From: Kosakonia oryzae
GTDB taxonomy: Bacteria > Pseudomonadota > Gammaproteobacteria > Enterobacterales > Enterobacteriaceae
Direction of reading: 5' to 3'
Length of the DNA: 64,000 bases
Assembly: GCF_001658025.2 (NCBI RefSeq)
Contig: NZ_CP014007.2
Location: 4,774,001 to 4,838,000, forward strand
Both the position numbers and the translations under genes were made by a program. Under the pieces are notes generated by a model. That model searched no databases. It was not told the origin of the DNA and was given only the letters and a program-made list of their open reading frames with translations. Shown here piece by piece: positions 20,630-60,778 of this stretch. How positions within the stretch are numbered: the stretch's first letter is position 1; each line of letters begins with the position of its first letter.

Positions 20630-21759
<1,130 letters not shown>

Positions 21760-22980
21760 ATGGAAAAGCACTACGTCGGTTCTGAAATAGGGCAATTACG
21801 AAGCGTTATGCTGCATCGCCCCAATTTAAGTCTGAAACGTTTAACACCATCGAATTGCCAGGAACTCTTATTTGATGATGTGTTATCGGTCGAGCGTGCC
21901 GGCGAAGAGCACGACGCCTTCGCAAACACGCTGCGCGAGCAGGGTGTGGAAGTCCTGCTGTTAACCGACCTTCTGACCCAAACACTTGATATTGCTGAGG
22001 CGAAAAGCTGGCTGCTGGACATGCAAATCTCCGATTATCGCCTTGGCCCTACCTTCGCCGCAGACGTACGTAGCTGGCTGGCGGATATGCCGCATCGCGA
22101 GCTGGCGCGGCGGCTCAGCGGCGGATTAACCTACGGAGAAATCCCGGCATTTATTAAAAATATGGTGGTGGATATCCACACGGCGAATGATTTTATTATG
22201 AAGCCGTTGCCTAACCATTTATTTACCCGCGATACATCCTGCTGGATTTATAACGGCGTATCGATTAACCCAATGGCCAAACCGGCTCGTCAGCGCGAAA
22301 CAAATAATCTGCGCGCTATTTATCGCTGGCATCCGGCCTTCGCTGACGGTGAATTTATTAAATACTTTGGCGACGAGAATATTAATTATGACCATGCCAC
22401 TTTAGAAGGCGGCGACGTATTAGTGATCGGTCGCGGCGCGGTATTAATTGGCTTGTCTGAACGCACCACGCCGCAGGGCGTTGAGTTTCTTGCCAACAGC
22501 CTGTTCAAACACCGCCAGGCAGAACGGGTTATCGTCGTCGAACTCCCCAAACACCGCTCCTGTATGCATCTCGATACCGTGATGACGCATATCGATATCG
22601 ACACCTTCTCCGTCTACCCCGAAGTGGTGCGCAAAGACGCACATTGCTGGACGCTCACCCCGGACGGACGCGGCGGCCTGCAACGCACGCAGGAGAACGA
22701 TCTGCTGCACGCCATTGAGAAAGCGCTCGGCATTGACCAGGTGCGACTCATCACCACCGGCGGCGATGCCTTCGAAGCCGAACGCGAACAGTGGAATGAC
22801 GCCAACAACGTCCTCACGCTGCGCCCCGGCGTGGTAGTCGGTTACGAACGCAATATCTGGACTAACGAAAAGTATGACAAAGCCGGGATCACCGTGCTGC
22901 CCATTCCTGGCGATGAGCTGGGGCGCGGGCGCGGCGGTGCACGCTGCATGAGCTGCCCACTAGAACGCGACGGGATTTAA
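21760..22980 (+). CDS. arcA: Arginine deiminase ArcA
   Basis: A 406-residue enzyme that hydrolyses arginine to citrulline and ammonia, the first step of the arginine deiminase pathway. The N-terminal [15 protein letters not shown], the [19 protein letters not shown] and [10 protein letters not shown] segments and the catalytic cysteine in [15 protein letters not shown] are intact, with Cys, His, Glu and Asp at the expected places. It opens an arcA-arcC-arcB-arcD operon similar to that of Salmonella. The gap to arcC is only ten bases. The pathway yields ATP under low oxygen and raises pH by releasing ammonia. Confidence 0.97.
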
Positions 22981-39451: not shown

Positions 39452-39913
39452 AATTACCACCAATACTACCCTGTAGACATCGTCAACGGCCCCGGCACCC
39501 GCTGCACCCTGTTCGTCTCCGGCTGCGTACACGAATGCCCCGGCTGCTACAACAAAAGCACCTGGCGGCTCAATTCCGGTGTTCCTTTCACGCGGGAGAT
39601 GGAAGACCGCATCATCGCCGATCTCAACGATACGCGCGTTAAACGCCAGGGCATTTCGCTCTCCGGCGGCGATCCGCTGCATCCGCAGAACGTGCCGGAC
39701 ATTTTAAAGCTGGTCACCCGCATCCGCGCCGAATGCCCAGGCAAAGATATCTGGGTGTGGACCGGTTACAAAATGGATGAACTGAATGCCGCCCAGCTTG
39801 AGGTGGTGGCCCTGATCAACGTGCTGGTTGACGGTAAATTCGTTCAGGATCTGAAAGACCCAATGCTGATCTGGCGCGGCAGCAGCAACCAGGTTGTGCA
39901 TCACTTGCGGTGA
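39449..39913 (+). CDS. nrdG: Anaerobic ribonucleotide reductase activase NrdG
   Basis: A 154-residue radical-SAM enzyme that uses a [4Fe-4S] cluster and S-adenosylmethionine to form the glycyl radical on NrdD. The cluster cysteines are C26, C30 and C33 in SGCVHECPGCYN (CX3CX2C). SGGDPL is the SAM-binding motif. The start MNYHQYYPVDIVNGPG follows GAGGAAAA, which belongs to an ERIC element. It is cotranscribed with nrdD. Confidence 0.97.
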   Translation: MNYHQYYPVDIVNGPGTRCTLFVSGCVHECPGCYNKSTWRLNSGVPFTREMEDRIIADLNDTRVKRQGISLSGGDPLHPQNVPDILKLVTRIRAECPGKDIWVWTGYKMDELNAAQLEVVALINVLVDGKFVQDLKDPMLIWRGSSNQVVHHLR

Positions 39914-52317: not shown

Positions 52318-53280
52318 ATGATGCAATCGCTGGTTTTTGATCAATTTGGTTCCCCCGAAGTGCTGTGGTTGCGCACCAGCCCTGCGCCGGAACCGGGCGA
52401 AGGCGAACTGTTGGTGGAGGTTTCCGCCGCCGGGCTGAACTTTGCCGATATTTATCGTCGCCAGGGGCGTTATCCGCTGGCGGGAACGGCGCCGTGGATT
52501 GCCGGTTACGAAGGTGCGGGGCGCGTGCTCAACGTCGGCAGCGGCGTGGAAGGCTGGCAGGTGGGCGATCGCGTCGGCTTTGCCGATGTTCCACTGGCGC
52601 ATGCCAGCCACATTCTGGTGCCACAAGATCATGCTATCCGCCTGCCTGACTGGGTTTCGGAAGCGGAAGCCGCATCGATATTGTTACAGGGCTTAACCGC
52701 GGATTATCTGTTGCATGACATCTTACCCGTTGAACCGGGCATGCATGTTGCGGTGCTGGCGGCAGCGGGCGGTGTTGGCAATCTGCTGACGCAAATGCTG
52801 GTGGCGCGCGGCGTGCATGTTTTCGCTGTCGCCTCCAGTAAAAGCAAACAGGCCGCCTGCCTGCACAATGGTGCCGAGGTCGCGACCGATTATTACGGCT
52901 GGCCAGAACAGGGGCGCGCCTGGCATTCATCAGGCTGCGATATCGTTTTTGATTCGGTGGGCAGCACGCTGCTGGAAAGTATGCAGAGCCTGAAAGATAG
53001 CGGCCGGGTGGTGTTATTTGGTATGTCTGGCGGTGAGATCCCGGCCTTTGATCCGACCGGGCTGTTACTGAAATCCGCCGGCGTTATCGGTGCCGATCTC
53101 TGGACGTACCTCACCTCGCAGCAGGAGAGACAGCGCCGCGCCGACCGGCTGTTTGCGCTGTTGAAAGCCGGAGATATCACGCTGCCCACGGTGACATCAT
53201 TCCCGCTTTCCCGCGGCAAAGAGGCGCATAACTTGCTGGAGAACCGGCTGTTTAGCGGCAAGGTACTGTTGATTCCATAA
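52318..53280 (+). CDS. Zinc-free quinone oxidoreductase / NADPH-dependent MDR
   Basis: A 320-residue medium-chain reductase of the quinone oxidoreductase (QorA) type. It keeps the fold (AAGLNFADIYRRQGRYPLAG, AAAGGVGNLLTQML for cofactor binding, FDSVG) but lacks zinc ligands. It probably reduces quinones or enals with NADPH. It starts at two adjacent ATG codons without a strong ribosome site. The divergent LysR gene is the likely regulator. Confidence 0.9.
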   Translation: MMQSLVFDQFGSPEVLWLRTSPAPEPGEGELLVEVSAAGLNFADIYRRQGRYPLAGTAPWIAGYEGAGRVLNVGSGVEGWQVGDRVGFADVPLAHASHILVPQDHAIRLPDWVSEAEAASILLQGLTADYLLHDILPVEPGMHVAVLAAAGGVGNLLTQMLVARGVHVFAVASSKSKQAACLHNGAEVATDYYGWPEQGRAWHSSGCDIVFDSVGSTLLESMQSLKDSGRVVLFGMSGGEIPAFDPTGLLLKSAGVIGADLWTYLTSQQERQRRADRLFALLKAGDITLPTVTSFPLSRGKEAHNLLENRLFSGKVLLIP

Positions 53281-53343
53281 GCGGCGGAATCAACATACCG
53301 GATGGCGGCTTCCCCCCAGTGAATGGGCGTTCTGCGCTAAAGA

Positions 53344-54555
53344 TTATGCTGTCGCAGGCGCCAGCCTGCGCGATAGTGCAATCCCGACATAAAACAGCGC
53401 AAAACAGAATACGCTCACCAGTATCAACACGACGGGTACGTCCGCTGGTGGCATAAACGCAAGCAGCACGCCTGTCACTGCCGGATTTACCGCCCCGCCA
53501 AGGCTGCCCATGTTCTGAAACGAGAAATAAAAGGCTCTCTCCGCAGGCGGCGCAATCTGGTCAATGACCCGATATTGCAACGGTGCAAAAATAATCTCGC
53601 CGAACGAGAAAAAAAACATTCCCGCGATCCAGACAACCCGGTTTTCACCGGCAGTGCTGAAGATAAATAACCCCGCTACCAGGCATATTGTCCCAGCCAG
53701 GAATCCCATGGCGAATGAGAACTTACTCATGAGATTGCCGGTAATGTACTGGAACAACACAACCGTAATCGCATTGGTGGTAATCAGAACAGAGACAATA
53801 TTCCCTACGGTTACCGCATCGTGATTCACCATCAGAATTTGTGAAATACAACTGGCAAAGCGCTCAAACACGAAAGAAGCCAGGAAAATAGCCAGCGTGA
53901 AAACCCAAAGAATAATAAGCCGCCGTTTATCCCGCGCAGATGTATGCAATGAAGGAGCCGTTGCGGCTACCGCCTGCGTTCTCATCGTCAAACCCGCCGT
54001 CACGACAATGGCCAGCAGGCCCAGGATGGCAGATAAAAGAAAAGGGAAATAGACATGATTTCCCACCAGCCAGGCGCCGATTAACGGCCCAACCATCCAG
54101 CCGATGTTGATAAAGGTATAATTCAGAGAAAAAACGCGGGTTTTCTCATCGTCACCGAAATGGTCAGAAATAAAGCACTTGATGATCGTGGAATATAATG
54201 CGTAGCAGCAGGTTATCAACGTAAAGCAGATAACAAAAACAACGGCAGAGTAGAAATAACCGAGAATTAAAAATGAGAGAGAAAAAATAAGCAAAGATAA
54301 TGTCAATAATAATTTATGGCTGAAAAGGTTAGCCAACTTTCCACTGACGATACTCAATAAAATCCCAACGACAATTGCCAGCGTAAGTACGTTACCAGTA
54401 TTGAGGATAGACATTCCCAACTGGTTATGTAAAAACAGCGGCAAAAACGGGAGAGTCACGCCTCTCCCGACTGTCGCAATAAAAGACCCTGCCACCAGCA
54501 TTGCAATATTACGTTTGCCAGTGAGCGGATAATCTATGGCGTTTTCTTTAATCAA
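53344..54555 (-). CDS. MFS exporter of the biosynthetic cluster
   Basis: A 403-residue major facilitator with about 12 membrane helices, starting with LIKENAIDYPLTGKRNIAML. Helices alternate with loops typical of drug or metabolite exporters (FLPLFLHNQLGM, FSLNYTFINIGWMVGPLIGA, RVIDQIAPPAERAFYFSFQN). I propose a TTG start at 54555, eight bases after GGAG and overlapping the upstream stop as TTGA. A GTG at 54606 in the same frame is an alternative. It ends the five-gene cluster and probably exports the product, which also gives self-protection; BacE and DdaI play such roles in related clusters. Confidence 0.85.
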   Translation of the reverse strand: MIKENAIDYPLTGKRNIAMLVAGSFIATVGRGVTLPFLPLFLHNQLGMSILNTGNVLTLAIVVGILLSIVSGKLANLFSHKLLLTLSLLIFSLSFLILGYFYSAVVFVICFTLITCCYALYSTIIKCFISDHFGDDEKTRVFSLNYTFINIGWMVGPLIGAWLVGNHVYFPFLLSAILGLLAIVVTAGLTMRTQAVAATAPSLHTSARDKRRLIILWVFTLAIFLASFVFERFASCISQILMVNHDAVTVGNIVSVLITTNAITVVLFQYITGNLMSKFSFAMGFLAGTICLVAGLFIFSTAGENRVVWIAGMFFFSFGEIIFAPLQYRVIDQIAPPAERAFYFSFQNMGSLGGAVNPAVTGVLLAFMPPADVPVVLILVSVFCFALFYVGIALSRRLAPATA

Positions 54556-55814
54556 TGGAGTAACTCCAGTTCCATCTCCTGTTGAACCTGCGCAAAAAAG
54601 CCGCACAGATCGTTTTCCAGCATCTGATGGTTCGGATAAATAACCTGAATCCGCCCTATCGTTTCACCCGGTTTAACCTGCGACATGCCTTGTTGACCGG
54701 ATAACTCTTCATAGACTGGCCGGAACCATGACAATACCAGCTCACGGAATTTCTGCGGCGAGTAGCTTCCCTCTTTGGCGACGTCAAAGCGGATAGCGCT
54801 GCCGACACCGTCGCTTTGCAGAATCTCCTGTTCGTTCAATGGCACGCCGGAATGAATATCAGCAAGCCAGCGGAAGATATTGTTTCCAGAGACATTGTTA
54901 TAAAGGATAGGCATATAGCTACCCATAATTCTCGGGTTAACTTCAACAAGCACCGGCCCTGATTTCGTCAGGATCAATTCAATATGGAAAATCCCATGGC
55001 TTAATCCCAGAGCGGAAAGAACAGAAATAGTATATTCGCGGCATAATTTCTGTTCAGACTCTGTTAATAGCGCAGGCATATCAATTCGGTATTCTACAAG
55101 TTCATTCTGACTTGAACGTCCCCGGCCGGAAATCATAAATGCATTATATAGCAGGCCATCATGCGCAACTTCCACGGATACCATATTACCGACCAGGTAT
55201 TCCTCCACCAGAAACCCGCGTAAATACTGCTCCTGCATTTTTAACGGTTCGCGAGCGACAGCATCCATGATCCCCTGCCAGGCGCGATGCAATTGTGAAG
55301 CATCACGAACAATTGCAGTCGCCACACTGTTAAGGGATGTTTTAGGCTTAATAACCAAAGGATAACCTATTTCATCGGCAGCACGAACTAAATCACCATT
55401 GGTTTTCACATGGCGGAATTTTGCATTTTTAATACCGTGTTGATTAAGGCACTCACGAGTATTATCTTTATTTCTGCTTTTTAATACTGCATGGTATGAG
55501 GGAAAGGGTAAATGCAGTGCTTCGGCTACCGCAGCAGCCGATTCCATTGAGTTCTCCGCAATACAAATTATTCCATCAAGTGTTTTTTTCTTATCTATTT
55601 CACAGGCAAGCTTCAGAAGCTTATCGGCTTTGTCAGTATCTTCAAAATAGTAAATATCAGTTAACGACTTTTTAATATATTTATTTTCATCAGTGTCAGC
55701 GTAACAGATAAAAGAAGTCGATTCGACATAAGAGATATCATGCCCTAAAGAAATAATTTCTTTAATTGCTTTAAGGCCAGTAAGGTTTGCATTGATAAAA
55801 AGAAAATGTGCCAT
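54552..55814 (-). CDS. ATP-grasp L-amino-acid ligase-like enzyme
   Basis: A 420-residue ATP-grasp carboxylate-amine ligase. It has a Rossmann-like N-terminus (HFLFINANLTGLKAIKEIIS), ATP-binding lysines in YPLVIKPKTSLNS, the LVEEYLVGNMVSVEV strand and the Mg-binding Glu/Asn in GPVLVEVNPRIMGSYMP. Order and motifs match L-amino acid alpha-ligases such as BacD or DdaF, which form a peptide bond through an acyl-phosphate. It begins three bases after the C39-like gene and overlaps the exporter. The base composition is lower in GC than the backbone, suggesting transfer. The substrates cannot be told. Confidence 0.88.
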   Translation of the reverse strand: MAHFLFINANLTGLKAIKEIISLGHDISYVESTSFICYADTDENKYIKKSLTDIYYFEDTDKADKLLKLACEIDKKKTLDGIICIAENSMESAAAVAEALHLPFPSYHAVLKSRNKDNTRECLNQHGIKNAKFRHVKTNGDLVRAADEIGYPLVIKPKTSLNSVATAIVRDASQLHRAWQGIMDAVAREPLKMQEQYLRGFLVEEYLVGNMVSVEVAHDGLLYNAFMISGRGRSSQNELVEYRIDMPALLTESEQKLCREYTISVLSALGLSHGIFHIELILTKSGPVLVEVNPRIMGSYMPILYNNVSGNNIFRWLADIHSGVPLNEQEILQSDGVGSAIRFDVAKEGSYSPQKFRELVLSWFRPVYEELSGQQGMSQVKPGETIGRIQVIYPNHQMLENDLCGFFAQVQQEMELELLH

Positions 55815-55818
55815 GTTT

Positions 55819-56355
55819 TTATACCCTGCCAGACAGAACGATGCCTTTCATTGAAAAACTACAGGAAAACTGTTCAACCGTAACAGCATGATGTGTTTTC
55901 CCCCAGGTTGTCGGATCCATAAAACAGATAAAGCGTTGGCCAAACATATTCCTGAGTGCATAGAGCAAAACCAGGTGTCCACCACGACGGCCATCGCACG
56001 GAAATTTATGCGTAACAGAAGCGATGATGAGCTGTGATGTTGTCAGTTTTTCTATGACCTGCTCCAGACTCAACGGCATCGCCTGGGCGGTAATGCCATG
56101 CGTTGAAATCACCTGCGCAAGTTGTTCATGCCGCCAGCCCTGCGCGGTATACCCGCCGATGCTGACACAAGCGTTGAACAACGTTTGGACAGAAACATGA
56201 ATCCCTTCCAGTAACAGGAGTGCCGAGCTTGCGCATGCCAGCCCACATGATCGAACGGACCAAAAATCAAGAAGTTCCGTCAACGACGCCGGCAGACTGT
56301 GGAACTCTTTGAGTTCCGTGTGCCAATACTGGCAAACGTAAGGTGGTCTTTTCAC
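55819..56355 (-). CDS. C39-like papain-fold cysteine peptidase or acyltransferase
   Basis: A 178-residue protein with the layout of the peptidase C39-like family. Cys37 lies in VRSCGLACASSALLLL, His127 in RRGGHLVLLYAL and Asp147 in CFMDPTTWG, giving a probable Cys-His-Asp triad. No membrane segment, ABC-transporter part or precursor peptide gene is found next to it, unlike C39 proteases of bacteriocin exporters. In this cluster it could trim a peptide, form or transfer an amide, or hydrolyse the product. The ATG overlaps the stop of the Ddl-like gene (ATGA). Confidence 0.78.
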   Translation of the reverse strand: MKRPPYVCQYWHTELKEFHSLPASLTELLDFWSVRSCGLACASSALLLLEGIHVSVQTLFNACVSIGGYTAQGWRHEQLAQVISTHGITAQAMPLSLEQVIEKLTTSQLIIASVTHKFPCDGRRGGHLVLLYALRNMFGQRFICFMDPTTWGKTHHAVTVEQFSCSFSMKGIVLSGRV

Positions 56356-57416
56356 ATCGGTGCCTGGTGCGTTGCTTGCTTAAGAAATGCCGTATTCATT
56401 ATTGCGAGGATCATTTCTTCATAGCTGAAGCCGAAAGAGGTAAACATTTGGGTAAAGTTCCCGCCATGAGAAATCCCTGGCACAGTATTGATCTCCAGGA
56501 CAAAGACGTTATCGCCCTGAATCATCATGTCGACCCTGGAAATACCTTCACAGCCACTGTGCAAAAATGCCTGCCATGCAGTCTCTTTTATGGTTTGCTG
56601 CTGTGTTGCAGAAAAATTGCCGCCCAAACAGTAGTTAATGCTATTTTTGCTTTTGCCAAGTTTCAATTCTGCATCATAAAACTGCGCTTCCGTCTCTGTA
56701 GTCAGTACCGGCAGAACATAGTATCCGGTTGATAATTGAATAATTCCAACCGTCACAAATGCGCCATCAATATACTTTTCCATTAAGTACGAAGTGATGC
56801 CTTTCACACACTGCTGTTCTTTCCAGTATTTCAAATCCTGATCGTTGTTAATTAACGTAATACCCAGGCTGCTGCCACCCTGCCTTTCTTTCATCATTAC
56901 CGGATAAGCAAGAATAGCGGCTTTTGTCTGTAATGAATCTAGCGTTTCACCGCTTTCCAGTTCGTAATAAGGCGCGGTATTAATGCCTGAACTTTTCATA
57001 ACGTGCTTGAAATATAATTTATCGCAACAAATGGCGCTGGCTGCGATGCCAGGCCCAGGATAAGCAACACCAAGATAATCCAGCCATCCCTGAATACGAC
57101 CATCTTCGCCAAATTCGCCTTGCGCATAAATAAATGCATAATCAGCAACAGCCAGATAATCTTTTATTTTGGCGTCGGTACTGGCCACTCTTTTGTAGTT
57201 GAGCCCCAAAGCACACAGGGCTTTATCAATAGCCAGAATCCCCCTTATTTCAGCGGCTGCATTATGCGTATATATTTTATTTTCATCGGAATGGTCGCCT
57301 TCAACCAACACAATGAATTTGTCTTCCAGAGTGCTTTTCAGATTAGTAAGAACGTTTCTTTCAAGATCGAAATTTGAATATAGCTCATCATCTGTTTTAT
57401 AAGAAAAAACAGTCAT
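56352..57416 (-). CDS. D-Ala-D-Ala ligase-like ATP-grasp enzyme
   Basis: A 354-residue ATP-grasp ligase resembling D-alanine:D-alanine ligase. It has GEFGEDGRIQGWLDYLGVAY (Ddl GEDG.IQG motif), the ATP-binding VMMKERQGGSSLGI and the metal-binding Glu/Asn in VFVLEINTVPGISHGGNF. The omega-loop segment reads FYDAELKLGKSK instead of the Ddl 'YDYE.KY' pattern. The substrate is therefore likely not two D-alanines. N-terminal residues about 1-90 are only weakly Ddl-like. Housekeeping ddl genes lie elsewhere in enterics. It could build the product or give resistance to it, as the Ddl of the cycloserine cluster does. Confidence 0.85.
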   Translation of the reverse strand: MTVFSYKTDDELYSNFDLERNVLTNLKSTLEDKFIVLVEGDHSDENKIYTHNAAAEIRGILAIDKALCALGLNYKRVASTDAKIKDYLAVADYAFIYAQGEFGEDGRIQGWLDYLGVAYPGPGIAASAICCDKLYFKHVMKSSGINTAPYYELESGETLDSLQTKAAILAYPVMMKERQGGSSLGITLINNDQDLKYWKEQQCVKGITSYLMEKYIDGAFVTVGIIQLSTGYYVLPVLTTETEAQFYDAELKLGKSKNSINYCLGGNFSATQQQTIKETAWQAFLHSGCEGISRVDMMIQGDNVFVLEINTVPGISHGGNFTQMFTSFGFSYEEMILAIMNTAFLKQATHQAPM

Positions 57417-57450
57417 AATCAGGAGTTCCCCATAAAAATAGATTGCTGGG

Positions 57451-58377
57451 TTATTTTGCCGCTAGTTTAGAGATATAGCGCTCACCGGAATCAGGAGAGA
57501 TGCAAACAATATGCTTGTAGAGTGCCATTTCGGCTATTTTTTTCGCCACTGAAACAATAGCACCACTCGACAGGCCAATATCTACTGCATCACTGGTATA
57601 CAGCTCATGGCAGGTGTCGATGGCTTCTCTATCGGTAACCTGATAAATCTCGTCGACAAATTTTTTGTCATATATTTCCGGAATAAAATCAGAACCGACC
57701 CCTTCAATACACCAGGGCTTTGGCTGACGATCCTCGGAATATTTATCTGCGTGATAAATCGAACCGGCTGGATCAATAGCGATAATTTTCACATTGGGAG
57801 CATGTTCGCGGAAGTAACGCGATATTCCCATGACGGTACCGCCGGATCCGATACCACAAACAATGGCATCCACATTGCCCTGCGTTTGTTGGTATATTTC
57901 TGGTGCTGTTGAAAAATAATGAGCTTCACTGTTATAAGGAGAACAGAATTGGTTAAGATAATACCGCCCGGAAACTGCTGCGTATTCTTTAGCCATTTCT
58001 ATATAGTGGGTTCGGGAACCTGCGGGGGACGATGATGAAGTGAGGATAACATTAGCGCCAAGATGTTTTAATAACGCCAGTTTCTCTTTACTGATTTTAT
58101 CATGGGTAACAATGGTGACTTTATATCCCTTATGCTTTCCGATCCAGGCAACGCCAACACCTGTATTACCGGAGGTAGCTTCAACCAATTCCATACCGGG
58201 TCTAATTTTCTCATGCCGTTCGCATTGAGAAATCATCCGTAATGCAACCCGGTCTTTTATTGATCCTCCGGGGTTGAATGATTCCAGCTTGACATAAAGA
58301 TGAGAATTGAACTGCCGGTCTTTAAGAATCTCTATCAATGGCGTATTGCCAATTGAATCCGTGATATCACCTGTCAT
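57451..58377 (-). CDS. Cysteine-synthase/cystathionine-beta-synthase-like PLP enzyme
   Basis: A 308-residue fold-type II PLP enzyme. The PLP lysine is K41 in NPGGSIKDRVALRM, with SGNTG and GIGSGGTVMG cofactor loops. The IAIDPAGSIY and EGVGSDFIPEIYD segments are closer to cystathionine beta-synthase than to CysK. It should replace the beta substituent of serine or O-acetylserine by a nucleophile, giving a beta-substituted alanine. As the first gene of a cluster with two peptide-type ligases, it probably makes a non-standard amino acid building block. No partner such as an ornithine-cyclodeaminase-like gene is present. Confidence 0.88.
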   Translation of the reverse strand: MTGDITDSIGNTPLIEILKDRQFNSHLYVKLESFNPGGSIKDRVALRMISQCERHEKIRPGMELVEATSGNTGVGVAWIGKHKGYKVTIVTHDKISKEKLALLKHLGANVILTSSSSPAGSRTHYIEMAKEYAAVSGRYYLNQFCSPYNSEAHYFSTAPEIYQQTQGNVDAIVCGIGSGGTVMGISRYFREHAPNVKIIAIDPAGSIYHADKYSEDRQPKPWCIEGVGSDFIPEIYDKKFVDEIYQVTDREAIDTCHELYTSDAVDIGLSSGAIVSVAKKIAEMALYKHIVCISPDSGERYISKLAAK

Positions 58378-58978
58378 AGGTATTTAATCCATCAAATTGT
58401 CACAAGAATAATACGACTGGCTATCATAAGCCAGCCTTATAAGGCTATGCCCCAAATTAATAACAGTCAATCAACAGGCAATAGTGCTCAAATAATCACC
58501 TCTTTGTTTTTATACATATTTTTCATGGAGTTACAATAAAACCACTAATAGACAACAAATGATAACAGTGACAATCAGATAAAAATTAGAATGTATTTTT
58601 ATAACCGCGCAAAAAGACAGGATATTCAACCAGACAGAGTCTGGTGAATAAGTTTTATTATTCACATTGCGATTACAGCGAAATATTATTTGCAACGCAG
58701 AGATCCCTTCATGGAATTATTCCAATCTTTGTATTCAGCATTTGTGATAATTTCATCGTGTTAAAATAAGGCAAATAATCTTTGTCTGTGAAGACGTATC
58801 GGCAATATTTCGGATAACGGTTTTTAATATGCCAGAAAAGCAAGCTACCAAATTTGGTTATTATTGGCTAAATACGGAAACGCGCAGGGAGAGGATAAAA
58901 ACGTCTCTGTGAAGAGGATAAGGGGGAAACCGCTATCTTCCCCCTGAGGAATGCTTTATACGTACTGCTCAAAGCCGA
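58378..58978. promoter_or_regulatory. AT-rich control region before the biosynthetic cluster
   Basis: About 600 AT-rich bases without a credible gene. CTGGCT-N6-AGCCAG (58417-58434) overlaps AGCCTTATAAGGCT (58433-58446). A minus-strand -10-like TATTAT lies at 58404-58409 just downstream, while the -35 is poor, which would fit activator dependence. The rest, toward cybC, shows nothing I can name. Confidence 0.5.
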
Positions 58979-59365
58979 TTAACGATACTTCTTGTGATAG
59001 GTGTTGCGCGTGTCAACAAACCCTTTCGCTGCCGCCTGTGCTTCTTTCACTTTGCCTTCGTTGGCCAGCTTCAGCGCACCGTCAATTTGCCCCACCAGGA
59101 TATCAAAACCGTGCCGGAAATCTTTCATCTCGGCGCTGTCCGGCGCTTTGCCTTCCAGCTTCGGCGGTGTGGCTTTTTGTGCATCCAGCGCGGCGGTACG
59201 CATCTTGGTTAACGCATCTTTCATTTCTGTGGCGTCACTGGTTTTCTGCACCACTTTGAGATTTTCGTTGAGGGTATCCATATCATCACCGAGATCGGCG
59301 GCAAACACCGTCGAACCAACAAACAATGACGACACAGCAAGGATCGCTAACAGATTTTTACGCAT
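58979..59365 (-). CDS. cybC: Soluble cytochrome b562
   Basis: A 128-residue periplasmic four-helix haem protein, apparently intact. The signal peptide ([20 protein letters not shown], cleavage after FAA-less AVFA) precedes mature [14 protein letters not shown]. The haem ligands Met7 and His102 of mature cytochrome b562 are kept ([15 protein letters not shown]). The role in enterics is unclear; in E. coli K-12 the gene is disrupted. It follows pmbA on the same strand. Confidence 0.96.
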
Positions 59366-59425
59366 TGCTCACTTCCTTTTTATTATTCACGCTTAAGGCG
59401 CACTGCTTTGCGCCACGGAGTAATG

Positions 59426-60778
59426 TTATTGTCCGGCGATTTTCATCTCCGGTAACAACACTGAACCACACTGAATGTTACTGCGCTGTTCAATATCGTC
59501 ACCGATGGTAACAATATTGCGCCACATCTCTTTTAAGTTGCCGGCGATGGTAATTTCGCTCACCGGATACTGAATTTCACCATTTTCTACCCAAAAACCA
59601 GAAGCTCCACGGGAATAATCGCCGGTAATACCGCTCACGCCCTGCCCCATCAGTTCGGTCACCACCAGGCCGGTGCCCATCTCTTTCAGCATCTGCTCAA
59701 AGCTCAGGCCGCGTCCGGCAATGCGCCAGTTGTGAATACCACCAGCGTGGCCAGTGCTTTTCAGCCCCAGTTTACGTGCGGAGTAGTTGGTCAGCAGCCA
59801 CTGCATCAACACGCCATCTTTAATGATATCGCGGCGTTCGGTGCGCACGCCTTCGCTGTCGAACGGCGTCGAAGCCAGCCCTTTACGCAGATGCGGATGC
59901 TCTTCAATGGTCAGCCATTCCGGCAGGATCTGTTTGCCGAGATAGTCGAGCAGGAAAGTCGATTTACGGTACACCGCGCCACCAGCAATCGCACCGACCA
60001 GATGACCAAACAGCCCGGTTGCCACTTCATGACCGAAAATTACCGGCGCTTTCATGGTCGGCAGCTTACGCGGCGAGAGGCGCGACAGCGTGCGCTTAGC
60101 GCACTCTTCGCCGACCCACTCCGGCGTTTTCAGATCGTTGATATCACGACCAATGGTGTACGCATAATCGCGCTCCATTTCGCCGTTCTCTTCGGCAATC
60201 ACGCAGCTCGACAGCGAATGGCGGGTGGAGCAGTAGCTTTGCAACATACCGTGGCTGTTGCCGAAAACTTTAATGCCGTAGTGGCTGTTGAAGCTGCCGC
60301 CTTCGGTATTAGTGATGCGTTTGTCAGCCTTCAGCGCGGTTTGTTCAGCGCGAGCCGCCCACTCAATCGCCTCATCCGGCGTCACTTCCGCCGGGTGGAA
60401 AAGATCGAGATCCGGCGCATCGAAGGCCAGTAGTTCTTTGTCCGCCACGCCTGCATAAGGATCCGGCGAGGTGTAGCGGGCAATATCCAGCGCGGCCTGC
60501 ACCGTACGGGCGATGGCATCCGGGCTGAGATCGGTGGATGACGCGCTGCCTTTGCGGTTCTGGTGATAAACGGTGATCCCCAGCGCGCCGTCGCTGTTAA
60601 ATTCTACATTCTCCACTTCACCGTAGCGCGTGCTGACGCCGATCCCGGTGGTTTTGCTAACCGCCACTTCCGCACCATCCGCTTTCCCGGAGGCCAGCTC
60701 CAGTGCTGTGGAAACCGCTTCTTCCAGCGTTTTGCGTTGTTGTGCAACTTGTGTGATTACTTTCATCGCCAATGCCAT
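59426..60778 (-). CDS. pmbA: Metalloprotease subunit TldE (PmbA)
   Basis: A 450-residue TldD/PmbA family protein. With TldD it forms a heterodimeric protease that matures microcin B17 and degrades CcdA in E. coli; TldE is the subunit without zinc catalytic motif. The start [20 protein letters not shown] follows E. coli; 23 codons open upstream are excluded. The conserved [20 protein letters not shown] and [19 protein letters not shown] segments and the C-terminal [18 protein letters not shown] are intact. Confidence 0.97.

Follow-up and report, generated by a model that had tools for sequence, protein, structure and literature searches.

A Kosakonia oryzae operon with two ATP-grasp ligases and a C39-like cysteine enzyme: a candidate pathway for an exported small peptide

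Among the described systems closest to the subject of this study, a five-gene operon of Kosakonia oryzae, the D-cycloserine pathway (DcsD/DcsG/DcsI/DcsJ) combines a synthase resembling cystathionine beta-synthase (CBS), an ATP-grasp enzyme, a Ddl and an exporter; the dapdiamide pathway includes an SbnA-like enzyme and an exporter of the major facilitator superfamily (MFS), BacE of the bacilysin pathway is likewise an MFS exporter, and the closthioamide pathway uses carrier proteins. To our knowledge, no C39 enzyme belongs to the D-cycloserine or dapdiamide pathways, and neither a Ddl-like nor a C39 gene belongs to the bacilysin pathway. The operon lies in a 64,000-nucleotide stretch of contig NZ_CP014007.2 (positions 4,774,001 to 4,838,000; hereafter the window), where its genes fill positions 53344-58377 of the minus strand and encode, in transcription order, a CBS-like pyridoxal phosphate (PLP) enzyme, a Ddl-like ATP-grasp ligase, a C39-like cysteine enzyme, a second ATP-grasp enzyme resembling L-amino-acid ligases (LAL-like) and an MFS exporter (Table 1). 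By description, it is set apart from the D-cycloserine pathway in having no arginase-like or DapF-like gene.

The dapdiamide pathway (DdaF, DdaG and others) is like the operon in its ATP-grasp ligase and in amide bonds formed independently of nonribosomal peptide synthetases (NRPSs), according to the available part of the source (PMC12568646). The operon has no DdaG-type gene, however, and its LAL-like protein scores 55 bits on the equivalog model of dapdiamide synthase DdaF, against a cut-off of 840. The likeness to the bacilysin pathway lies in the L-amino-acid ligase, BacD being matched by the LAL-like protein at E 3e-11, yet the score on the BacD equivalog model is 43.8 bits against 850. 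An earlier, sequence-only reading of this DNA had named both pathways as partial analogues; the shared parts stand, whereas these scores speak against membership in either. The phosphonoalamide pathway of Streptomyces (PnaB/PnaC) shares with the operon a PLP enzyme for a beta-substituted alanine and two ATP-grasp ligases, one of which makes dipeptides while the second joins them to the beta-substituted alanine; it is thus a proven case of two such ligases building a tripeptide. Its PLP enzyme, however, belongs to the aminotransferases and its product carries a phosphonate headgroup, and the accessible part of the report mentions neither a Ddl-like ligase nor a C39 enzyme (PMC11867202). In closthioamide synthesis, ATP-grasp and cysteine-protease proteins form amide bonds, but, unlike the operon, that pathway is thiotemplated and has a thioamide synthetase (PMC8868522, available part). 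VanHAX and the van loci of Ktedonobacteria resemble the operon, by description, in the genetic linkage of a Ddl-family ligase to a peptidase; in the Ktedonobacteria, vanX was lost and M15B and C39-family peptidases were gained, and the co-localised genes include MurF and Ddl (PMC9689679, available part). The operon has no MurF, dehydrogenase, two-component or M15 gene, and carries an exporter and a PLP enzyme instead. No paper recognisable as describing the five-gene set was found in the open literature, a search that did not extend to MIBiG or subscription papers. Pairs of ATP-grasp and papain-like proteins may already be listed in the survey of amidoligases by Iyer et al. 2009.

We found all five genes, in the same order and at a different site, in Escherichia sp. 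ESNIH1 (locus L008), flanked on one side by mutS together with a 3-dehydroquinase-like gene and on the other by a GAPDH-like gene (read from translations). The amino acid identity between the two sets is 63-81% across the five proteins, with 251/308 identical residues for the CBS-like, 269/354 for the Ddl-like, 117/178 for the C39-like, 325/420 for the LAL-like and 253/402 for the MFS protein. Synonymous sites are saturated in the first four genes, for which the ratios of nonsynonymous to synonymous differences (pN/pS) were 0.125, 0.196, 0.274 and 0.178, respectively; the corresponding ratio of substitution rates (dN/dS) for the MFS gene was 0.09. Because the set recurs in the same order elsewhere with all genes under purifying selection, it reads as a real unit maintained in two lineages at two sites. 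The junctions in the window are compact from the Ddl-like gene onward: a gap of 34 bases separates the CBS-like and Ddl-like genes, followed by a 4-base overlap (GTGA) with the C39-like gene, a 4-base gap before the LAL-like gene and a 4-base overlap with the MFS gene. The last of these takes the MFS start to be, most likely, TTG 54555 rather than GTG 54606, because in the Escherichia locus the MFS gene begins with TTG at the equivalent place and likewise overlaps by 4 bases.

Part of the set recurs in another phylum. One run of genes in Streptomyces viridochromogenes (L105, genome G736) encodes a Ddl-like protein, an MFS protein, a C39 protein, a FemAB-like/GNAT protein and a ligase with an L-amino-acid-ligase C-terminal domain, and the same five are present in a second Streptomyces genome (L148, G786); thus, four of the five families of the window stand together there, accompanied by a FemAB-like protein, whereas the CBS-like one is absent. 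A third Streptomyces locus (L147, G784) has a partial MFS gene, C39, FemAB-like and LAL genes, with no Ddl found within the stretch, and the S. viridochromogenes genome also carries an MFS, LAL and C39 combination (L009). The sequence-only reading had proposed a coherent, foreign, closely coupled same-strand cluster of the exported-small-peptide type, to be checked by co-occurrence of its families; the gene set, its coupling and its recurrence in Escherichia and in the two Streptomyces genomes all support that proposal. A scan of genome contigs with the LAL-like protein alone gave no relative.

The most informative point in our view, which the sequence-only reading had missed, is that the Ddl-like and C39 genes form a recurrent pair in which the pocket of the Ddl-like ligase is altered. 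An alignment of the C39-like protein with three Streptomyces relatives was used as query and gave 49 loci, for which neighbours were counted on the same strand within 3.5 kb, fragments included; some loci share a genome (L009 with L027; L012 with L019 and L056). DapF, Ddl and MurF sequences accompany C39 in 35 loci, Ddl and MurF in four, Ddl in two and MurF in two; the remainder are CBS, Ddl, LAL and MFS (one), LAL and MFS (one), MFS (one) and none of these (three). Overall, a Ddl-like sequence is near C39 in 42 of the 49 loci and some ATP-grasp sequence in 43. The DapF, Ddl-like, C39 and MurF C-terminal domain combination was also seen on a contig of 96 kb that is catalogued as viral (L160, IMGVR_UViG_2866048730_000001). 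Within the Streptomyces sample, the C39 profile matches 59 of 246 genomes at E up to 1e-8; among the matches listed, 16 score at least 146 bits and the rest at most 85. In the C39 tree, the enterobacterial pair does not group with a particular cluster type.

The Ddl-like protein of the window contains the Ddl C-terminal ATP-grasp domain (Dala_Dala_lig_C, PF07478, 107.4 bits, cut-off 24), and lies below the curated Ddl models (TIGR01205, 175 against 245.7; PRK01372, 183 against 243). In alignment with E. coli DdlB, the Glu15 position, the GSS loop, the Arg-x-Asp and the Glu-x-Asn residues are kept, whereas Tyr216 is changed to Leu and Ser281-Leu282 to Gly-Asn; we take Tyr216 and Ser281-Leu282 to be second-substrate residues, and the roles of the other aligned DdlB residues are likewise assumed. 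The same positions were read in the 40 C39-linked Ddl-like sequences with an open frame of more than 900 bases, fragmentary ones being excluded: position 216 reads Lys-Leu in 36, Lys-Ile in one and is unreadable in three, and positions 282-283 read Asn-Phe in 36 and are unreadable in four. Conversely, all 11 canonical Ddl proteins in our tree, including the two of the host, have Lys-Tyr, and none has Asn at 282. The tree comprised 36 C39-linked proteins (the broken frames L014, L026, L030 and L040 were dropped), the Ddl-like protein of L105 (L101), the 11 canonical and four other Ddl proteins. The C39-linked proteins and L101, which reads Lys-Leu and Asn-Leu, form one clade apart from the canonical and other Ddl proteins (support 0.999-1.0); this clade is monophyletic solely with L101 included, and the placement of L101 beside the enterobacterial pair is without support (0.199). 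The altered pocket throughout this clade suggests that the second substrate of the Ddl-like ligase is probably not D-Ala.

For the C39-like protein, a model built on 31 sequences (mean predicted local distance difference test score 91.3) points to a papain-type C39 fold. Its joint top structural matches are the C39 domains of PCAT1 (9azl, Z 16.6, root-mean-square deviation (rmsd) 2.1, 133 aligned, Foldseek E 2.5e-7) and ComA (3k8u, Z 16.6, rmsd 2.2, 135 aligned, Foldseek E 4.3e-7), followed by papain-like toxins and pseudomurein endoisopeptidase (Z 15.4-16.0); phytochelatin synthase, a transpeptidase, is also among the matches (2bu3, Z 14.1, rmsd 3.1, 150 aligned). Gln9, Cys37 and His127 are invariant in 31 aligned C39-like proteins and Asp147 is found in at least 90% of them; these four residues are presumably the C39 catalytic set. 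The Escherichia sibling passes the Peptidase_C39_2 model (27.8, cut-off 24). No signal peptide was recognised by eye at the N-terminus, so the enzyme should act in the cytosol.

The remaining proteins are assigned to families, not to known functions within them. The CBS-like protein has a PALP domain (250 bits, cut-off 35) with the SIKDR and TSGNT motifs and the glycine loop visible in alignment, and falls below the cut-off of all 25 NCBIfam models listed (for example, cysKM 303 against 344, CBS 301 against 510, CysK 286 against 351, CysM 241 against 394 and SbnA 242 against 350); its closest match in the PDB is a CBS (7xrq). A Klebsiella match (H1, 43%) is annotated as cystathionine beta-synthase, stands beside a PLP aminotransferase gene and was set aside. 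The LAL-like protein has an ATP-grasp_4 domain (58.6 bits, cut-off 27) and its match to BL00235 (3vot, E 4e-19) in the PDB, beside the BacD match given above, makes it a putative ATP-dependent dipeptide ligase. Matches of about 30% identity in Klebsiella and Pantoea were rejected as a different cluster type. These belong to another ATP-grasp cluster, observed on the Klebsiella plasmid pFF979_2 (L005:1368-9269) and on a Pantoea agglomerans plasmid (L006:3233-11040), with octopine-dehydrogenase-like, phytanoyl-CoA-dioxygenase-like, DapH-like, SDR, ATP-grasp, MFS and LysE genes; its ATP-grasp protein is the one about 30% identical to the LAL-like protein. The exporter matches MFS_1 (132 bits, cut-off 33.4), and its best NCBIfam model is YdeE (284 bits, under the cut-off of 582).

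These results make it likely, in our judgement, that the operon makes an exported small peptide. It is also reasonably probable that this is an acquired operon by which a small di- or tripeptide containing a beta-substituted alanine is made independently of NRPSs and then exported; we infer the following reactions and product: (i) the CBS-like enzyme would make the beta-substituted alanine; (ii) the Ddl-like ligase would activate one amino acid as an acyl phosphate and join it to a second, probably other than D-Ala; (iii) the LAL-like enzyme would add a further residue, or make the first dipeptide, as in phosphonoalamide biosynthesis; (iv) the cytosolic C39 enzyme would act on the Ddl-type product via Cys37/His127/Asp147; (v) the YdeE-like protein would export the product and protect the producer. 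For the C39 step, there is about an even chance of hydrolysis, in which unwanted or protecting amide bonds would be removed by a VanX-like partner of the ligase; transfer of the acyl group to another amine is a more tentative option. The gain of a C39-family peptidase by van loci that lost vanX favours a dipeptide-processing role.

Several observations weigh against a dedicated peptide pathway of this kind. The complete five-gene set is known in two genomes only, and the operon genes include no racemase, regulator or obvious toxophore gene. The C39-like protein of the window passes no C39 model (best DUF3335, 12.3 against 25) and has no NCBIfam match. Nor is the C39 protein always coupled to a ligase, because six of the 49 loci have no adjoining ATP-grasp sequence (L010, MFS only; L021 and L049, MurF only; L012, L029 and L056, none), and the distant loci L149 and L150 of the same phylum as K. 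oryzae are also without a ligase match; L010, from a Bacillaceae metagenome-assembled genome, consists of an MFS gene in two frames and C39. The exporter is weak evidence for a peptide, since YdeE, although it figures as a dipeptide exporter, has been linked to the export of arabinose as well (PMC9600279, available part), and the protein is far under the YdeE cut-off. Finally, no carrier protein was found among the five genes, which fill 53344-58377 and leave no room for one, so that a closthioamide-like thiotemplated route is unavailable within the operon.

The alternative that survives best, although we regard it as unlikely, is carrier-free acyl transfer, in which the C39 enzyme would condense an acyl group activated by an ATP-grasp enzyme with an amine and the trio would make two or three amide bonds; it overlaps with the transfer option given above. 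It draws on the phytochelatin synthase match, on the closthioamide precedent (PMC8868522, available part) and on the acyltransferase BtrH, described as closely related to C39 in the part of the source at hand (PMC10318531). However, the operon is without a carrier protein; moreover, the top folds are those of C39 peptidase domains, with toxins and pseudomurein endoisopeptidase ranking next, and fold likeness alone proves no function.

Remodelling of cell-wall precursors or self-resistance has, in our estimate, a rather small probability. Here, the Ddl-like enzyme would make an alternative dipeptide terminus for peptidoglycan and the C39 enzyme would remove native D-Ala-D-Ala, in the manner of VanA and VanX, while the other operon genes would supply an unusual amino acid. 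The genomic context of the relatives is consistent with this: in actinomycetes, the Ddl-like and C39 pair mostly has MurF or a MurF C-terminal domain alongside, Ddl and MurF sequences are both present in 39 of the 49 C39 loci, and two Streptomyces loci have the C39 domain and the MurF C-terminal domain in one open frame (L013:1924-2859 and L053:7905-8771). We also observed that L002, L004 and many relatives encode the MurF C-terminal domain in a short gene of its own, the remainder of MurF being absent. Within the phylum of K. oryzae, the C39 profile matches nine of 398 genomes, namely K. oryzae and eight distant ones; among the five of these eight that we opened (L149-L153), three from another class (L151, 6958-8751; L152; L153) have the distant C39 relative adjoining a Ddl gene, and the Ddl of L151 is canonical (Lys-Tyr and Ser-Met). 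This distant C39 subfamily has Asn in place of Asp147 and is found in Streptomyces too, where it adjoins Ddl and MurF (L154). The C39-family gene gained by the Ktedonobacteria van loci with M15B, in place of vanX, points the same way (PMC9689679, available part). Against this, both enterobacterial clusters are without MurF and have an exporter and a LAL-like enzyme, the K. oryzae genome contains, outside the operon, two additional proteins that match Ddl more strongly and are taken to be DdlA and DdlB, and the Ddl-like ligase fits none of the Van models listed (98 bits on the VanA model, cut-off 775). A catabolic or salvage operon, in which a peptide-like or sulphur compound would be imported or handled and the ATP-grasp enzymes would be housekeeping paralogues, is very improbable: the CBS-like and MFS genes alone would suit amino-acid metabolism, and YdeE has been counted with the transporters that influence how arabinose or xylose is metabolised (PMC3429515, available part), but two ATP-consuming ligases, a cysteine enzyme, the foreign composition and the patchy distribution argue otherwise.

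The peptide-pathway reading also accords with the history of the locus, which was horizontally acquired and is foreign-looking in composition. The guanine plus cytosine (GC) fraction per kilobase in 54001-59000 is 0.45, 0.41, 0.46, 0.42 and 0.38, and that of the remaining 59 kilobases of the window is 0.47-0.61, bar one; the AT-richness claimed by the sequence-only reading is thus confirmed (38-46% GC versus mostly 47-61%). The second AT-rich kilobase is 21001-22000 (40% GC). The flanking genes are a PIG3-type quinone oxidoreductase gene (52318-53280, plus strand) and cybC (58979-59365, minus strand). It had been proposed that the cluster sits between nrdG and cybC; cybC indeed adjoins it, whereas nrdG (39452-39907) is no direct neighbour and lies beyond 13 kb of other genes.

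We opened the site in four of the other genomes in a genus sample of 15. The same flanks are about 137 bases apart in G009, about 155 in G001 and about 543 in G014, with no match to the cluster between them. The sister genome G003 retains the MFS exporter as an open frame (397/420 residues identical, dN/dS 0.16, compared with 0.12 for the neighbouring oxidoreductase gene), together with a 162-base LAL-like piece, the leader and the 5' end of the CBS-like gene; all other parts of the cluster are gone. The retention of the exporter alone fits a protection role, but would be explained equally well by decay still in progress. When the genus sample was searched with the DNA of the cluster, six of the 15 genomes matched at E up to 0.001, and outside G000 and G003 the matches span only 45-135 bases. 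As an observation on the site itself, the oxidoreductase-cybC interval differs in all four congeners opened (L066-L069), being about 137, 155 or 543 bases or a scarred cluster, and it looks as if this were a site of repeated change.

The distribution is patchy. Within the genus sample, the C39 gene is confined to K. oryzae, and at E up to 1e-5 the C39-like protein was found in one of 145 relatives and one of 369 genomes of the class, K. oryzae itself each time; a more sensitive profile brought up one further genome of the family, G049, with a distant relative. With the limit set at E 1e-40, the LAL-like protein occurs in one of 295 genomes of the order, again K. oryzae. Searches of 20,395 E. 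coli records gave no match for a 5.2 kb query (near mode) or for the Ddl-to-LAL part (distant mode). The C39-like protein has no match in 50,697 phage records and matches three Streptomyces records among 72,556 plasmid records. Neither collection speaks for an origin from a phage or a plasmid. No repeat pair readable as a target-site duplication or attachment site was found at the locus.

Table 1. Features of the operon and its surroundings (window coordinates).
Feature	Position	Strand	Remarks
CBS/cysteine-synthase-like PLP enzyme	57451..58377	-	308 aa; PALP; proposed maker of beta-substituted alanine
Ddl-like ATP-grasp ligase	56352..57416	-	354 aa; PF07478; second-substrate site altered
C39-like papain-fold cysteine enzyme	55819..56355	-	178 aa; Gln9/Cys37/His127/Asp147; predicted fold
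L-amino-acid-ligase-like (LAL-like) ATP-grasp enzyme	54552..55814	-	420 aa; ATP-grasp_4
MFS exporter, YdeE-like	53344..54555	-	~403 aa from TTG 54555; longest frame to 54606
AT-rich leader	58378..58978	-	promoter-like element common to L008; stem-loop 58436-58415
Acquired segment, quinone oxidoreductase gene to cybC	53281..58968	.	absent in G009 and G001, partly deleted in G003

The leader of the operon was compared with that of the Escherichia locus. Both contain TTGACT, a 17-base spacer and a TAnnnT hexamer (TAGCCT in the window, TAATTT in L008), followed by a stem-loop at the same place and of different sequence; this is a weak promoter candidate, drawn from two sequences. The element is absent among the sites of our promoter scan, and the promoter and terminator scans were no better than shuffles (11 versus 13.4 and 7 versus 5.9). 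No Rfam match was found at E up to 1 in 53000-59500. The longest minus-strand open reading frame inside the leader has 54 aa. A 28-codon TTG frame present in both loci overlaps the promoter-like element and its translations are little alike, and we do not claim it as a precursor of a ribosomally synthesised and post-translationally modified peptide.

A more speculative and, in our view, improbable possibility is that the Ddl-like and C39 proteins form one carrier-free, two-enzyme machine for making or editing amide bonds, present in at least Actinomycetota and Pseudomonadota, the latter also having, in another class, the more distant C39 form next to Ddl genes. Such a machine would be coupled to MurF where the context resembles that of the cell wall, and in pathways for small peptides to an exporter and a second ligase, and the enterobacterial product would be an exported antimetabolite resembling D-Ala-D-Ala.

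Genome mining has difficulty in finding exported small peptides whose synthesis needs no NRPS, as their enzymes resemble housekeeping ligases. The operon is a compact example, carried by an enterobacterium that is tractable, and a second copy occurs in nature with which it can be compared. The Ddl subfamily, with its recognisable pocket signature and C39 partner, may serve as a guide when other genomes are examined. Should the C39 step be transfer, the operon would represent a carrier-free route to amide bonds; if it is hydrolysis, the C39 enzyme would be a cysteine-enzyme counterpart of VanX.

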